In this document: in pieces, positions 8,367 through 25,415 of the stretch | How positions within the stretch are numbered: the stretch's first letter is position 1 | Layout of the letters: every line of letters begins with the position of its first letter | Assembly (NCBI RefSeq): GCF_002078605.1 | Contig: NZ_MSJR01000012.1 | Location: forward strand, 1-64,000 | Direction: 5' to 3' | Origin: Salegentibacter sediminis | Lineage (GTDB): Bacteria > Bacteroidota > Bacteroidia > Flavobacteriales > Flavobacteriaceae | Length of the DNA: 64,000 nt | Position numbers and translations under genes: made by a program | Notes under the pieces: generated by a model | What the model was told of the DNA's origin: nothing | What the model saw: only the letters and a program-made list of their open reading frames with translations | Database searches by the model: none

Positions 8367-8475
8367 AGCTTAGATCAATTGGTGGGTGAAATTAAGAAAA
8401 TTTTTAGTGAAATTGCTTTTAACTAGCAGTATTCCTTAATCTAATTAACTATAAAAATTGTTTTCAGAAAAAATA

Positions 8476-8483
8476 TATCTTTG
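8476..8483 (+). promoter_or_regulatory. Bacteroidota -7 promoter element
   Basis: TATCTTTG matches the TAnnTTTG -7 consensus of Bacteroidota primary-sigma promoters. A TTG lies about 15 bases upstream, shorter than the usual spacing. It precedes the glycosyltransferase stub at 8503 by 19 bases. A near-copy of the whole promoter and start module occurs at 9498-9559. Confidence 0.55.
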
Positions 8484-8502
8484 AGTAAACTTAACCAACT
8501 AC

Positions 8503-8541
8503 TTGAAGAAACTATCCATCCTCATCCCGGCTTATAATTAG
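8503..8541 (+). pseudogene. 12-codon stub of the GT2 gene at 9524
   Basis: A TTG start followed by codons for [11 protein letters not shown] and an immediate TAG. 36 of 37 bases (8502-8538) match 9523-9559, the 5' end of the intact dolichol-phosphate-mannose-synthase-like gene, and the flanking promoter is similar too. This is best read as the left-behind 5' end of that gene after the sulfotransferase-bearing segment was inserted at the conserved IPAYN codons. Confidence 0.75.
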
Positions 8542-8647: not shown

Positions 8648-9355
8648 TTGCTGATAATCGCTATCCCAAAAAGTGCCAGTACCTCCTTAATGGTAACCAT
8701 AGGAGAGCTTCATAAGCTTGAGGCAGTACAGGATTTTTCATTCCGGGAGAACTCCCCCCCGAAATCAAGTAACAAAATTCACCTGGTCCATTCGGATATT
8801 AGGGAGTTAAGTCAGAATGAGATCGATAAATTTTCCCGGAAGGACACCTTCTACAAACAACATATCTTTCCTTCTGCAAACAATCTCAAATTACTTAAGA
8901 ACCTACCCAAGGTAGTTCTTTTAAGAAATCCTAAAGAAATAATAATGGCCTACCAAAGAGGCGCCAAAAGAAATTACAACAGTCTTCCCCCTGGATATGA
9001 TACCAAACTAAAAAAAGAAGATCTTATTATTAAGGCCAAAAGAGATGGGTTTTATAATGATTTGGTATATTTTTACGATAACTGGAACCACCAAACTAAT
9101 AATAGAAATACCCTAATTATTTATTATAATGATTTTTTGAAAAACCCTAAAAAGGTGATTAACGAAATTGAAAAGTTTTACAACCTCCCTATAACAAAAA
9201 AGAACTTTAAGCCAGCAAAAGCCAGATATTCGAAAATCGGCATTAAAGATCGTCTGAATATCTTTCAAACGAAAACATTGATTTTCACTAATCAATGTTT
9301 GATTAAGATAGGTGCTAAGGATTTTTTAAAACGGATACTAAAAAGTTTAAAGTAA
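8648..9355 (+). CDS. Sulfotransferase-family protein
   Basis: A 235-residue protein with the PAPS-binding loop at its extreme N-terminus (IAIPKSASTSLMVTIGEL). LRNPKEIIMAYQRG near residue 95 is the 3'-phosphate site, and YYNDFLKNPKKVINEIEKFY near 160 is the usual sulfotransferase C-terminal helix. There is no ATG ahead of the loop: TTG at 8648 is the only plausible start, because an in-frame TAA lies at 8633. The gene is AT-rich and sits exactly between two copies of a promoter plus GT2 start module (8476-8538 and 9498-9559), which marks it as an inserted cassette. The acceptor sugar is unknown. Confidence 0.78.
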   Translation: MLIIAIPKSASTSLMVTIGELHKLEAVQDFSFRENSPPKSSNKIHLVHSDIRELSQNEIDKFSRKDTFYKQHIFPSANNLKLLKNLPKVVLLRNPKEIIMAYQRGAKRNYNSLPPGYDTKLKKEDLIIKAKRDGFYNDLVYFYDNWNHQTNNRNTLIIYYNDFLKNPKKVINEIEKFYNLPITKKNFKPAKARYSKIGIKDRLNIFQTKTLIFTNQCLIKIGAKDFLKRILKSLK

Positions 9356-9497
9356 AAAGCATTTGTTCAAAATAGTTTTACACCCCGACCTATAAAGAAA
9401 AAAGAGAGATGTATTTTCCGATAATTGAAAAGTCTAAAAAACGGATAAAACCCTTGAGAATAGAAATTCAATAATGAGAAGATGATATAAAAATAGA

Positions 9498-9505
9498 TAT
9501 ATTTG
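9498..9505 (+). promoter_or_regulatory. Bacteroidota -7 promoter element
   Basis: TATATTTG fits TAnnTTTG and lies 18 bases before the TTG start of the GT2 gene at 9524. The leader (CTAAACTAACC) resembles the leaders after 8483 and 13619, suggesting that glycan genes here carry a common promoter-leader module. Confidence 0.55.
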
Positions 9506-9523
9506 ATCTAAACTAACCGCCTC

Positions 9524-10240
9524 TTGAAAAAACTATCCATCCTCATCCCGGCTTATAATGAAGAGAAAACCATAATTCCCATTTTAGAGGAATTAAAAAT
9601 CTTAGCCCTGGATTTTTCCCTGGAGAGGGAGATCCTGATTATAGATGATCATTCTACCGACAAGACAGGAGAATTAATAACCGAATTCATTACTAAAAAC
9701 CCCGAAATTGATATTAATTATTTTAAGCAGGAGACCAACCTGGGGAAAGGGGCGGCAATACACAAAGGGATTGACATGGCATCAGGAGATTTTATAATCA
9801 TCCAGGATGCCGACCTGGAATATGACCCTGATGAATACAATCATCTCCTAAGGCCGGTACTTGAAGGAAAAGCGGATGTGGTTTATGGTTCCCGGTTTAT
9901 GGGAGGCAACCCGCACCGCATTCTTTTCTTCTGGCACTCTATAGGCAATAAATTTCTCACTTTTCTAAGCAATGCCTTTACCAATCTCAATTTAACCGAT
10001 ATGGAAACCTGCTATAAGCTTTTCAGAGCTGATATTCTGAAATCTTTGACCTTAAAGGAAAAACGTTTTGGGTTTGAACCCGAGGTGACTGCAAAAATCA
10101 GTAGAATTCCCGGTATAAGAATTTACGAGGTGGGCATCTCTTATTACGGGCGTACTTATGCAGAAGGCAAAAAAATAAACTGGAAAGACGGGTTACGGGC
10201 TTTATGGTGTGTTTTTAAGTACAATATTATTGCCCGCTAA
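9524..10240 (+). CDS. Family 2 glycosyltransferase, polyprenyl-phosphate sugar synthase type
   Basis: 238 residues in the DPM1/GtrB-like branch of GT2, expected to charge a polyprenyl phosphate with a sugar from a nucleotide donor. The N-terminus is [14 protein letters not shown], with [12 protein letters not shown] (about 42), [13 protein letters not shown], the catalytic DXD region [14 protein letters not shown] (about 90) and [16 protein letters not shown]-type sequence appears as [13 protein letters not shown]. There are no C-terminal membrane helices. The neighbour one base downstream is a multi-membrane-span transferase that could use the lipid-linked sugar, a common GtrB plus GT-C pairing. 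The start codon is TTG. Confidence 0.87.
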
Positions 10241-11586: not shown

Positions 11587-11990
11587 GCACTTCGACTATT
11601 CGTCTGCTACCGCAGCCGGCTCAGTGTGACAAGTGGATTTAATAATATGCTATCAACAAACCAGGTGTGTCAGGCTGAGCCCGACCAGAGGGAGGAAAAG
11701 CTTGTCCTGAGCGCGAAGCAGTCGAAGGGTCGAAGCAATGTCAGGCTGAGCCCGACCAGGGGGAGGAAAGTCGAAGCCCCCTTTGAAATTCAAAAGACAT
11801 TCGCAACTTATTACTAAGCACTTCCCTTCGACTCCGCAAAAGCTACGCTCAGGACAGGCTATTTCGGCTACCGCCGGGCTCAGTGTGACAGCGCGTTTTA
11901 ATAATAAGCCATCAGCAAACCAAAAATGTCAGGCTGAGCCCATATTTCTGGCCGGTAGGACAGAAGTATGGAAAGTCGAAGCCCATTTAA
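11587..11990. repeat. Family A palindromic repeat block (left of GIY-YIG gene)
   Basis: The gene-free stretch 11529-12026 is mostly repeat. Each unit has an arm with CTTCGAC ... GGCTCAGTGTGACA, a divergent centre of about 45 bases, and an inverted arm TGTCAGGCTGAGCCC ... GTCGAAG. Two tandem units are present here. The 192-base segment 11669-11860 recurs in the same orientation at 12515-12706 with about three differences, bracketing the GIY-YIG gene. Short open frames across it are translations of the repeat and are not genes. Confidence 0.85.
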
Positions 11991-12026
11991 AGTTAAAATA
12001 TTAGTTCTAACTTATTACCCCGTAAC

Positions 12027-12347
12027 CTATTCCTCTAAATCCTTATCTGGTTTCCCGTACCGCCCGTAACTTCTTGAAAATTTTATCAGGTCATTCCAGT
12101 TTTCATTAATTAAAGCCTGTTTTTTTCTCCGGCTCCAACCTTTGATTTGTTTTTCCACCATTATAGCATACTGGGGATCGGTAAACTGTTCACTCCACTT
12201 TAATATTACCGGGCGCCGTGAAAAAGTATACGCATTCTCATCATACCCTGAATTATGTTCCCATAATCTTCTATTCAGGTTATTTGTGATACCTGTATAG
12301 TAAGAATTGTCCTTGCATTCAACTATGTAGACGTAATACAATTTCAT
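12027..12347 (-). CDS. Stand-alone GIY-YIG nuclease-domain protein
   Basis: A 106-residue single-domain protein of the GIY-YIG superfamily (UPF0213/YhbQ- and SLX1-like). The two signature tyrosine segments are YYVYIVECKDNSYYTGIT (residues 4-21). The catalytic arginine lies in LNRRLWEHNSG and the metal-binding glutamate in MVEKQIKGWSRRKKQALI. All expected catalytic residues appear present, so it may nick or cut DNA, although no cellular role is established for these small forms. It is embedded in family A repeats, with near-identical 192-base direct copies on both sides. A paralogue at 19730-20023 sits inside a different repeat family. Confidence 0.88.
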   Translation of the reverse strand: MKLYYVYIVECKDNSYYTGITNNLNRRLWEHNSGYDENAYTFSRRPVILKWSEQFTDPQYAIMVEKQIKGWSRRKKQALINENWNDLIKFSRSYGRYGKPDKDLEE

Positions 12348-12426
12348 ATTACAATTTAAATAATTAATTTATAGCTGAACTAAGAGGGAAATATTTTGAG
12401 GGTTCTAAAGACATTATCTCAGTACT

Positions 12427-12862
12427 ACCAAGCACTTCGACTTTTCGTCTGCTATCGCAGCCGGCTCAGTGTGACAACCCATTTTAATTTGAATGCTAGT
12501 TTAAAAATTACACTGTCAGGCTGAGCCCGACCAGGGGGAGGAAAAGCTTGTCCTGAGCGCGAAGCAGTCGAAGGGTCGAAGCAATGTCAGGCTGAGCCCG
12601 ACCAGGGGGAGGAAAGTCGAAGCCCCCTTTGAAATTCAAAAGACATTCGCAACTTACTACTAAGCACTTCCCTTCGACTCCGCAAAAGCTTCGCTCAGGA
12701 CAGGCTCTTCGTCTGCTACCGCAGCCGGCTCAGTGTGACAATGTGTTTTAACAAGTGTTAGCTTAAAACCGATAGTGTCAGGCTGAGCCCATGTTTCTGG
12801 CCATTAGGACAGAAATATGGAAAAGCTTGTCCTGAGCGCGAAGCAGTCGAAGGGTCGAAGCC
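12427..12862. repeat. Family A palindromic repeat block (right of GIY-YIG gene)
   Basis: The gene-free stretch 12348-12896 is dominated by further family A units. The segment 12515-12706 is a direct repeat of 11669-11860, and homology continues beyond it into a second GGCTCAGTGTGACA ... GTCAGGCTGAGCCC pair. The motif CTTGTCCTGAGCGCGAAG occurs twice inside. The block ends about 35 bases before the stop of the acyltransferase gene. Confidence 0.85.
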
Positions 12863-19481: not shown

Positions 19482-19696
19482 TTCTCGATACAATCCCGAT
19501 TGCCATCGGGACCACTCATAGCCAAGGAACCGATACGTTGGGTTCGAGTGAATTCAAAATGCGGTAGCAATTTTGAATTAGTATCGAGAACAGCTTAGGA
19601 GCAGATTCTCATCAAGCTTCTCGATACTCCCGATAGCTATCGGGATTTATTCCGCTATCGCTTCATAAAAAACACTCGAAGTCAACGTGCTCGAGG
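19482..19696. repeat. Family B palindromic repeat
   Basis: The gene-free stretch 19445-19729 is almost all repeat. TTCTCGATAC (19482) starts one half-unit. CGTTGGGTTCGAGTG ... GTATCGAGAA (19536-19590) is followed by the inverted arm TTCTCGATAC ... CACTCGAAGTCAACG, so the unit can fold as a long imperfect hairpin. A perfect 16-base palindrome, CCCGATAGCTATCGGG, lies in the second arm. It borders the GIY-YIG gene at 19730. Confidence 0.85.
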
Positions 19697-19729
19697 TCCA
19701 GGTGGGAGTGAATTGATAAGATTAAAAAT

Positions 19730-20023
19730 TCATTTTTCAAACTTCTTCTTAGCCAGATTAGGCAAGGCTTCGTAATCACCCTTTATTAAAGATTCCTTTT
19801 TGGCCCTCGACCATTTTTTAATCTGTTTTTCATATAAAAACGTAAAATTAATATCTGTGAATTCGGTTAGAAAAACAAGTTCTACCGGCCGACGAAAGTA
19901 TGTATAGCTATCTCTGTAAAACCCGGATTGATGTTCCCTTAATCTTTTATCAATAAAGGAGGTTACTCCGGTGTAATATGTACCGTCATTACATTTTAGG
20001 ATGTACAGATAACTCCTTTTCAT
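19730..20023 (-). CDS. Stand-alone GIY-YIG nuclease-domain protein
   Basis: A 97-residue paralogue of the protein at 12027-12347. It keeps the same layout: SYLYILKCNDGTYYTGVT at residues 4-21, arginine in IDKRLREHQSGF, and glutamate in YEKQIKKWSRAKKESLI. By eye about 40-50% of positions agree with the first copy, so it is not a recent duplicate. It lies inside an array of family B palindromes (19482-19696 and 20085-20514), a different repeat family from the one around its paralogue. No biological role is established for such small GIY-YIG proteins. Confidence 0.87.
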   Translation of the reverse strand: MKRSYLYILKCNDGTYYTGVTSFIDKRLREHQSGFYRDSYTYFRRPVELVFLTEFTDINFTFLYEKQIKKWSRAKKESLIKGDYEALPNLAKKKFEK

Positions 20024-20084: not shown

Positions 20085-20514
20085 TTCTCGATACAATTCT
20101 TTATTTCGCTCCCGCTTCATAAAGAATCACTCGAAGTCAACGCCCGTAATTGTTACATGGATTTAGTTGAATGCCTCCCCGTTGGGTTCGAGTGAATTCA
20201 AAATGCGGTAGCAATTTTGAATTAGTATCGAGAACAGCTTGGAGTACGAGCTAAACAAGACTTCTCGATACTCCCGATAGCTATCGGGATTTATTTCGCT
20301 ACCGCTTCATAAAAAAACACTCGAAGTCAACGTCCGTACAATTATTATAGAAAAAAAACACCAAATACTTCCAGCCCGTTGGGTTCGAGTGAATTCAAAA
20401 TGCGGTAGCAATTTTGAATTAGTATCGAGAACAGCTTGGAGTACGAACTAAACAAGACTTCTCGATACATTTTCTATTCCGCTCCCGCTTCATAAAAAAC
20501 ACTCGAAGTCAACG
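20085..20514. repeat. Family B palindromic repeat array
   Basis: Most of the gene-free stretch 20024-20596. One half-unit (20085-20142) is followed by two full units starting at 20180 and 20377. Each full unit runs CGTTGGGTTCGAGTG, then an AT-rich segment that includes GCGGTAGCAATTTTGAATTA, GTATCGAGAA, a spacer of about 28 bases, TTCTCGATAC, a CCGCTTCAT-containing arm, and CACTCGAAGTCAACG. Terminal arms are exact inverted repeats. The core between TTCGAGTG and GTATCGAGAA is identical in all three full units of the window. Confidence 0.87.
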
Positions 20515-20535
20515 TGCTCGAAGTCAAGGCTGGAA

Positions 20536-20596: not shown

Positions 20597-20800
20597 TTAG
20601 TGCGACACCACAAAGCTAACCTTGGTGGTAACGCCGTAGGAAACTATTTGGTTTCCCTCAACTTTTCCATTCATATCCTTTACGTAGATAGACTTGATGT
20701 TTTTTACGGTTTTCGCAGCCTCCTTCAAGGCGTTATTAGTAGCATCTTCAAAACTCTTTTCTGAAGAAGCCATAATCTCAATTACTTTAACAATTGCCAT
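20597..20800 (-). CDS. Dodecin-family protein
   Basis: A 67-residue protein matching dodecin length and layout: VKVIEIMASSEKSFEDATNN, then ALKEAAKTVKNIKSIYVKDM and the final strand VTTKVSFVV. Dodecins form hollow dodecamers that store or buffer flavins or CoA. At the position where flavin-binding dodecins have tryptophan (NIRWFEV type) this protein has serine (NIKSIYV), so flavin stacking is doubtful and another ligand is possible. It has its own terminator and stands alone between repeat arrays. Start is the ATG at 20800. Confidence 0.88.
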   Translation of the reverse strand: MAIVKVIEIMASSEKSFEDATNNALKEAAKTVKNIKSIYVKDMNGKVEGNQIVSYGVTTKVSFVVSH

Positions 20801-21066: not shown

Positions 21067-21290
21067 TACTACAAAGCACTTCGACTTTCCTTCGGCTATC
21101 GCCTCGGAATCAGGGTGACAACACGAATTCAAATTGAATATTCAACCAATCAAGAGTGTCAGGCTGAGCCCCTCTAAAGCAGCCGGGAGGACTATTAGAG
21201 AGAAAGTCGAAGCAATGTCAGGCTGAGCCCATGTTTCTGGCCGTGAGGGCAGAAATATGGAAAGTCGAAGCCCTTTTGAAGGTCCAAATG
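21067..21290. repeat. Family A repeat upstream of neuC
   Basis: The gene-free stretch 20801-21382 contains AT-rich sequence upstream of dodecin and then this repeat. Segment 21067-21171 matches 25237-25341 at 97 of 105 positions in the same orientation, including the normally variable centre (ATTCAAATTGAATATTCAA), so these two copies are specially related. They bracket the neuC-neuA-asnB block. A further GTCAGGCTGAGCCC unit extends to about 21290. Confidence 0.83.
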
Positions 21291-25236: not shown

Positions 25237-25415
25237 TACTACCAAGCACTTCGACTATCCATCGGCTATCGCCTCGGGCTCAGGGTGACAACACGTATTC
25301 AAATTGAATATTCAACAAACCAAGAGTGTCAGGCTGAGCCCGACCGAAGGGAGGATGGTCGAAGCCATTTGAAATTCAAAAGACAGTTGCTACGTACTAC
25401 CAGGCACTTAGACTA
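25237..25415. repeat. Family A repeat downstream of asnB
   Basis: This is the content of the gene-free stretch 25165-25476. 25237-25341 is the direct counterpart of 21067-21171. It continues with GACCGAAGGGAGGATGG, a GTCGAAGCC arm and the start of another unit (GCACTTAGAC), which has decayed. Confidence 0.8.

Follow-up and report, generated by a model that had tools for sequence, protein, structure and literature searches.

A GIY-YIG nuclease gene between (C/T)GTC-tagged palindromic repeats in Salegentibacter sediminis: a probable REP-nuclease element

We analysed a 64,000-nucleotide stretch of the Salegentibacter sediminis genome (positions 1 to 64,000 of contig NZ_MSJR01000012.1; hereafter, the window), in which a small stand-alone GIY-YIG nuclease gene lies between two arrays of palindromic repeats. 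This locus is probably a REP-nuclease element (REP, repetitive extragenic palindrome): a nuclease gene set between its own cognate (C/T)GTC-tagged palindromes, whose product is the partner, and probably the mobiliser, of these repeats. GIY-YIG genes of this kind are associated with tagged palindromes in many genomes, the type of the repeat matches the type of the nuclease, and a given site can be empty, hold a pair of repeats or hold a repeat-nuclease-repeat unit. A first-pass annotation of the window had likened the locus to the partnership of RAYTs (REP-associated tyrosine transposases) with their REPs, with a GIY-YIG nuclease in place of the transposase, and our analysis supports this comparison and carries it beyond the single locus.

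REPs are widespread in bacteria, and RAYTs, which are tied to the GTAG class of REPs, are their proposed mobility enzymes. The CGTC-tagged REP superfamily, as described in the available part of a 2013 survey, "apparently lack[s] a dedicated transposase" (Di Nocera 2013, PMC3733652). According to the same part of that paper, these REPs carry an unpaired CGTC tag, often in the form TGTC or CCTC, their stems start with A.T, their tails are mostly CCA, dimers are frequent, Bacteroidetes are among the host phyla, and the question of what spreads the class is left standing.

The nuclease gene and its repeats

The gene is an open reading frame (ORF) of 106 amino acids on the minus strand (12027-12347), and its identity as a small GIY-YIG gene, proposed in the first-pass annotation, is confirmed by a match to PF01541 with E=3.5e-18 (66.1 bits against a cut-off of 22.6). 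The catalytic residues of GIY-YIG enzymes are Tyr, Tyr, Arg and Glu; Y7, Y17, R27 and E65 are invariant in 36 aligned relatives, the pattern that would be expected of an active GIY-YIG nuclease. AlphaFold models residues 1-80 with confidence but not those beyond 84, and 69 of the 106 residues have a predicted local distance difference test score of at least 90. The nearest solved folds found by Foldseek are those of UPF0213 proteins (E of 2.7e-6 and 4.5e-4), followed by Slx1, a nuclease of branched DNA, whose folds take ranks 3-12 with a template modelling score over the query of 0.50-0.55 and E of 7e-3 to 3e-2. Members of the UPF0213/YhbQ/YazA group (BH0048, 1zg2; EF2693, 1ywl) share with the window protein the fold, the size and the catalytic Tyr/Tyr/Arg/Glu positions. 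Slx1 matches it in fold, whereas the window protein, with its 106 amino acids and one Pfam domain, shows no second zinc-finger domain.

The gene is bracketed by two segments (11669-11860 and 12515-12706) that had been described as near-identical with about three differences, and indeed 189 of their 192 positions match, in the same orientation and at an offset of 846 bases. The fuller repeat is 196 bases long, both copies being on the plus strand (left, 11668-11863; right, 12514-12709), and is identical at 192/196 positions, with mismatches at 11689, 11811, 11845 and 11861. These blocks are portions of longer arrays; an alignment of the two 500-base flanking stretches runs over 427 columns with 86% identity.

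The arrays are built of imperfect palindromes, as had been claimed. The window contains five exact inverted pairs of the form GCTCAGnnTGACA ... TGTCAnnCTGAGC with spacers of 35-37 bases, and four of these TGTC-tagged REP dimers surround the gene: 11619-11680 (spacer 36), 11878-11939 (spacer 36, left of the gene), 12464-12526 (spacer 37, right of the gene) and 12728-12788 (spacer 35). A single TGTCAGGCTGAGC unit lies on the plus strand within each block (11739-11751 and 12585-12597). The fifth dimer (25278-25339, spacer 36) has no adjoining nuclease gene and is a candidate non-autonomous copy. Three of the five pairs were folded as single-stranded DNA and gave z-scores of -2.0 (11619-11680), -1.9 (12464-12526; -1.95) and -1.9 (25278-25339; -1.87), thus beating about 95-97% of shuffles, with 6, 8 and 9 of 200 shuffles folding equally well or better. 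In the whole 3.26-Mb genome the TGTCANNCTGAGC unit has 21 exact sites, 10 of which are around the 106-amino-acid GIY gene, whereas the reversed pattern, used as a control, has none. Also of note is an inner hairpin at 11927-11982 (CCATATTTCTG ... CAGAAGTATGG), which sits between the TGTCA part and the GTCGAAG part of a unit; a stretch resembling it (CCATGTTTCTG ... CAGAAATATGG) is found after 12776.

The window units keep the TGTC tag (as TGTCA; the repeats of one relative, G130, carry CGTCA) and the dimer habit of the CGTC superfamily. They differ from it in pairing as inverted dimers, mostly without the single-unit hairpin of the superfamily (an 8-9 bp stem with a 4-5 base loop next to the tag); the inner hairpin of the one unit does not adjoin its tag. 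By eye, no CCA tail was seen in the window unit, and the 21 sites, for which exact pattern matches alone were counted, fall short of the high copy number of the superfamily. We conclude that the window repeat is a divergent TGTC-tagged relative of the CGTC REPs that pairs as inverted dimers.

Apart from the GIY ORF, on which Pfam was run, the element contains no ORFs other than short ones within the repeats. An Rfam scan of the window returned no family at the gathering score, and the window contains no tRNA genes, so that these are not the source of its repeats.

Nuclease genes and repeats in other genomes

The first-pass annotation had suggested asking whether such genes lie next to repeats more often than chance, and they do so in two sets of loci. 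In a motif-free test (hereafter, the strict test), a gene was scored positive if its 500-base upstream and downstream flanks shared a repeat of at least 40 bits in either orientation. Set 1 consisted of the window and 80 regions chosen from a list of over 150 matches in genomes of the same family; L107 and L126 yielded no passing ORF and were dropped. Here 50/86 GIY genes were positive, as compared with 10/412 other ORFs of the same regions and 4/164 short control ORFs. Set 2 consisted of 80 named loci of many phyla, the best 80 of 583 from a separate scan whose query, six GIY genes that were mostly known to be REP-flanked, selects the subfamily and not the flanks; L178 was dropped for its in-frame stop. 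The corresponding figures were 49/82 for GIY genes, 8/396 for controls and 2/153 for short control ORFs. When the comparison was limited to genes with matched intergenic space (at least 150 bases on both sides), the counts became 35/41 vs 5/98 in set 1 and 10/14 vs 1/112 in set 2.

A wider rule, which accepts GTC-tagged hairpins as a second criterion besides the flank repeat, gave 54/85 vs 23/412 in set 1 and 69/81 vs 35/396 in set 2. Both rules miss some positives: L154 (Spirosoma) and L158 (Sphingomonas), positive by eye, escape the wider rule, and the heterodimers of L119 and L004 escape the strict one. By record title, the 69 positives of set 2 belong to Alphaproteobacteria (34/44), Beta-, Gamma- and other Pseudomonadota, Myxococcota, Bdellovibrionota, Chloroflexota, Ignavibacteriota, Bacteroidota, Planctomycetota, Nitrospirota, Omnitrophota, candidate phyla and unranked bins, where single phylum labels may err, since many of these loci are metagenome bins. 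In a plasmid collection, 18 of the 61 matches were examined, and together with E. coli yhbQ 13 of these 19 are REP-positive by rule. On a Planktothrix agardhii plasmid (L151), the annotated neighbours of a REP-flanked GIY gene are a type IIL restriction-modification gene on one side and the DISARM helicase gene drmA on the other. We found REP-flanked GIY genes in Azospirillum lipoferum, Sinorhizobium meliloti and Novosphingobium aromaticivorans, all of which are named in the available part of the 2013 survey (PMC3733652).

The tag signature emerged without any prior motif. We collected hairpins de novo (perfect stem of at least 8, loop of 3-9) and tabulated the 3-mer preceding each stem end. 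Hairpin density near GIY genes (at most 400 bases away) as compared with far from them (at least 2 kb) was 2.30 vs 0.44 per kb in set 2 (5x) and 1.09 vs 0.34 in set 1 (3x). In set 2, GTC preceded 39% of the near and 8% of the far stem ends, and TGG, which is the CCA tail on the other strand, 36% and 8%. In set 1, GTC was the commonest 3-mer, at 17% of near and 2.6% of far stem ends. GTC-tagged hairpins on both sides were found for 27/81 GIY genes and 1/396 controls of set 2, whereas six other tags gave 0 or 1 of 81. In other words, the GTC tag and the CCA tail of the CGTC superfamily appear of themselves in the hairpins next to GIY genes; the published account of the superfamily differs from ours in lacking a GIY-YIG nuclease gene between the repeats. 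Classic CGTC units fold strongly, with z-scores of -5.2 for the trpG-trpD unit of S. sediminis itself and -4.6 and -4.7 for Azospirillum and Shinella units.

The type of the repeat follows the type of the nuclease. Among locus pairs from different genomes that share no similar ORF nearby (blastp 1e-10, within 5 kb), the flanks are the more alike the more similar the proteins are, with Mantel r of 0.436 and 0.250 against maxima of 0.092 and 0.126 in 1000 permutations. In genomes with two GIY genes, each pair was compared with a query protein from another genome, and the flanks most like those of the query belonged to the closer paralogue 117 times and to the more distant one 4 times, with 719 comparisons uninformative and 13/15 genomes in agreement; leaving out the S. 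sediminis genome, the ratio is 99:4 and 12/14 genomes agree. The paralogue comparisons are non-independent, and for four loci of the S. sediminis genome the synteny check covers a neighbourhood of 1.5 kb. Individual relatives illustrate the trend. The 78% identical relative of the window gene has the same TGTCAGGCTGAGCC repeat, the 60% identical one has an CGTCACACTGAGCCTGTCGAAG form of it, and two relatives of about 50% identity have (C/T)GTCACTTCGAGTG ... TATCGAGAAG repeats that resemble those of a second GIY gene of the window, described below. Across 120 genomes of the family, the median number of units is 7 in those with a close homologue (E 1e-20, n=37), 1 in those with a weaker one (n=36) and 0 in those without (n=47). 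An independent distribution of repeats and GIY genes, which the first-pass annotation had named as an outcome that would speak against it, was not observed; related GIY genes more often share similar repeats, even at non-syntenic sites.

Occupied and empty sites, the comparison of which had also been proposed, were both found at two positions. We read by eye the trpG-trpD junction in 16 loci (S. sediminis itself, 14 congeners and one other genus). Two of the 16 contain REP-GIY-REP, six an inverted REP pair without the gene and five other spacers, and in the remaining three the genes nearly abut, with 10-11 bases between the aligned parts and no repeat. On either side the insert seems to end in GTC tags. 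Five congeners have a similar nuclease gene at another place, about 1.4-1.6 kb away from trpG. In Azospirillum lipoferum 4B, dimer-GIY-dimer is found at sufB-sufC, with a span of 1601 bases, whereas in all 11 other Azospirillum among the records listed (25 of 120) the span is 1016-1113 bases, i.e. 488-585 shorter; no CGTC REP was found on reading three of these shorter loci. The sufB-sufC gap of Shinella PSBB067 is occupied by REP-GIY-REP, apparently by independent arrival.

The presence of GIY genes is patchy (73/120 genomes; 18/31 relatives), and a single genome can have as many as 7 matches. In-frame stops are found repeatedly in GIY genes (L178:6001-6291 and several entries of the genome surveys), as expected of a mobile gene that turns over.

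Further homologues and features in S. sediminis

Six GIY homologues were found in S. sediminis at E 0.01, and four of them lie in palindromic repeats of four different kinds. The second is also in the window: a 97-amino-acid gene on the minus strand (19730-20023), 46% identical to the first, about 7.4 kb from it and bracketed by a different repeat family (TCGAGTG/CACTCGA and TATCGAGAA/TTCTCGATA palindromes). A copy of this second family lies to the left of the gene (19536-19702, of which 19536-19688 is 92% identical to the right copy), another to its right (20180-20333), and an additional one at 20377-20529 is 83% identical to 19536-19702. Judging by names read from ORFs, the third homologue lies between leuS-like and rimM-like genes with CGTCATTGCGAAGC-type repeats on both sides, and the fourth between trpG and trpD with GTCATTTCCGCGAAGGCGGAAATC and GACTCCCGCCTTCGCGGGAGTGAC repeats. 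At this last locus (L004:1868-1900) the trpG reading frame ends inside a REP (VISAKAEIS), so that the repeat supplies the C-terminus and the stop of a biosynthetic enzyme.

One of the other two homologues (L005, C20:70891-74154) lies beside two tRNA-Val genes and tRNA-like fragments. We considered its flank repeats as REPs and rejected them, as the tRNA genes explain them; the setting suggests another kind of site preference. NCBIfam gave no family above cut-off for six proteins, and a phage collection contained no relative of the one GIY paralogue used as query.

Two more TGTCAGGCTGAGC units are found at 21157-21228 on the plus strand, and an imperfect inverted partner of the first lies immediately before it. 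A small ORF of 67 amino acids (20597-20800), which we take to resemble dodecin, adjoins the second repeat family. Elsewhere in the window, a repeat of about 71 bases (86%; 8468-8538 and 9490-9559) brackets the gene 8648-9355, a control that scored similar flanks in the flank test. As a REP it was rejected, since by eye it resembles a duplicated start of the downstream glycosyltransferase gene.

Proposed mechanism and alternative explanations

If the nuclease mobilises its repeats, the process might run as follows. The cognate nuclease would recognise the tag together with the hairpin, either of a single REP or of an inverted dimer as in the window, when the hairpin is extruded from the duplex, or is single-stranded or exposed at a fork. 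It would then make a cut next to the GTC tag, either at one end or at both, and the REP-bounded segment would be copied elsewhere by the repair or replication machinery of the host. A copied segment with the gene would be the autonomous form, and one without it a REP pair, comparable to a miniature inverted-repeat transposable element. Alternatively, repair might convert one array to match another. We propose that a recent copy or gene conversion is the reason why the 196-base blocks are 98% identical in arrays that are otherwise about 86% alike. GIY-YIG enzymes use hydrolytic chemistry, and this, together with the UPF0213 and Slx1 folds, would point to cleavage plus host repair and not to RAYT-style covalent strand transfer, which is not expected of a GIY-YIG fold.

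The arrangement has much in common with RAYT/REP (TnpA-REP, REPtrons, REPINs), namely a nuclease gene flanked by cognate tagged palindromes and dispersed gene-less copies of the repeat, often as dimers. It differs in having a GIY-YIG nuclease instead of an HUH Y1 transposase and a (C/T)GTC instead of a GTAG tag. By analogy, the GIY-REP pair would work like RAYT/REP and is not a member of it. From a classical insertion sequence it is set apart by the ORF content given above and by the lack of a target-site duplication recognisable by eye. GIY-YIG intron homing endonucleases share the nuclease domain, and a segment that carries their gene into empty sites would leave a similar picture, whereas the REP-linked genes are bounded by dispersed palindromes and no Rfam family scored high enough in the window. 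The NCBIfam intron-endonuclease model did not match the window gene, and it scored three paralogues far below its cut-off.

Several observations weigh against our interpretation. By the strict test 36/86 GIY genes of the same family have no flank repeat, one of the 50 positives of set 1 is a tRNA pair (tRNA repeats account for none of the 49 in set 2), and 12/81 GIY genes of set 2 fail the wider rule as well. The first-pass annotation had held that its idea would suffer if orthologues of the subfamily were regularly repeat-free, and in spite of the 36 negatives we judge that they are not. The GTC-hairpin test is weak in set 1 (either side 12/85 vs 15/412, both sides 4/85 vs 4/412), where GAG is as frequent as GTC; our supposition is that many units there pair as dimers, for which reason motif hairpin counts are low, and the motif-free test is better suited to this set. 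Folded alone, two identical window units do no better than shuffles (z 0.34); of the four units folded, the third is weak (z -1.30) and the fourth, with the inner hairpin, reaches -3.03. No target-site duplication was recognised by eye at either sufB-sufC or trpG-trpD. Two of the six S. sediminis homologues are outside REPs, one beside the tRNA-Val genes and one in an operon. The matching of repeat to nuclease type is contradicted by 4/121 informative comparisons and 2/15 genomes, and the p=3e-7 of the unit-count test ignores kinship among the 120 genomes. Two of these, G080 and G119, have 10 and 18 TGTCANNCTGAGC sites and no GIY match at E 1e-6; the sites may be orphan repeats, or the partner may be too distant for the query. 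Finally, REP labels are moderately clustered on a quick LG tree of 185 sequences (34 changes vs a mean of 43 and a minimum of 37 in 300 shuffles), in which L005, with its tRNA repeats, carries a REP-positive label.

The REP pairs without a nuclease gene at trpG-trpD (6/16) count against our interpretation as well, and they are what one would see if REPs were mere landing sites, i.e. if GIY genes were independent mobile or homing genes that insert into abundant palindromes in the manner of some insertion sequences; the available part of one study reports that insertion sequences target REPs (PMC1525189). Yet repeat type tracks nuclease type more than it tracks the genome (117:4), two paralogues of the window so close to each other have different repeats, CGTC REPs are missing from the three empty loci at trpG-trpD and the three that were read at sufB-sufC, and the TGTCANNCTGAGC unit is rare in the genome except at the gene (10/21 sites). 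We therefore regard the landing-site explanation as unlikely. More improbable still is that the protein is a housekeeping or policing enzyme akin to YhbQ or Slx1, which trims extruded palindromes and is found near REPs as their controller and not their mover. Such a role would agree with the UPF0213 and Slx1 folds, and Slx1 is described as the founder of a family to which both E. coli YhbQ and B. subtilis YazA belong (available part of PMC7017083). However, the genes E. coli yhbQ and B. subtilis yazA, like one from Salinivibrio, have closely packed neighbours and are negative by the REP rule. A separate, REP-free clade of four (support 90) unites these three with a single gene from the window's family, and the window gene falls outside it. 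Moreover, the patchy presence, the up to 7 matches per genome, the stop-bearing copies and the REP-bounded insertions at different sites look selfish.

A RAYT acting from elsewhere, with the GIY gene as a bystander, is very improbable. The genome does have one Y1_Tnp match (C22:1835-2176), but the 21 exact unit sites are all on other contigs, the available part of the 2013 survey states that in CGTC-positive species no tyrosine transposase gene is flanked by CGTC sequences (Di Nocera, PMC3733652), and the flanking of GIY genes and the matching of types would be left unexplained. Chance, a tandem duplication or an assembly artefact at one locus has next to nothing to recommend it. Several draft GIY contigs do end close to the gene, as repeats cause, but the pattern recurs in complete records of the plasmid collection and in dozens of other genomes, so that for the association overall this explanation is already refuted.

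Hence, we retain the interpretation of the locus as a REP-nuclease element. The first-pass annotation had called it possibly undescribed, which is correct in part: the repeats fall in or near the CGTC superfamily, published in 2013 (available part of PMC3733652), whereas a link between GIY-YIG genes and REPs was not found in the open-access full-text literature (preprints and most subscription journals being outside this scope). The repeat class and the nuclease family were known already; what appears to be new is their type-by-type partnership, seen as insertions. It seems to us rather likely, though less so than the reading of this locus, that the mobility enzymes missing from the CGTC superfamily as a whole are stand-alone GIY-YIG nucleases, present from Alphaproteobacteria and Bacteroidota to Cyanobacteria, Chloroflexota and candidate phyla, and that these provide a second, independently evolved way of spreading REPs, in which tagged hairpins would be cut hydrolytically and copied by host repair. 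A nuclease between CGTC repeats, matched type by type, makes the spread of the CGTC class testable with one protein and one oligonucleotide. If the proposal is true, it would give a function to the common annotation "GIY-YIG nuclease family protein", and two unrelated nuclease folds would have converged on tagged hairpins.

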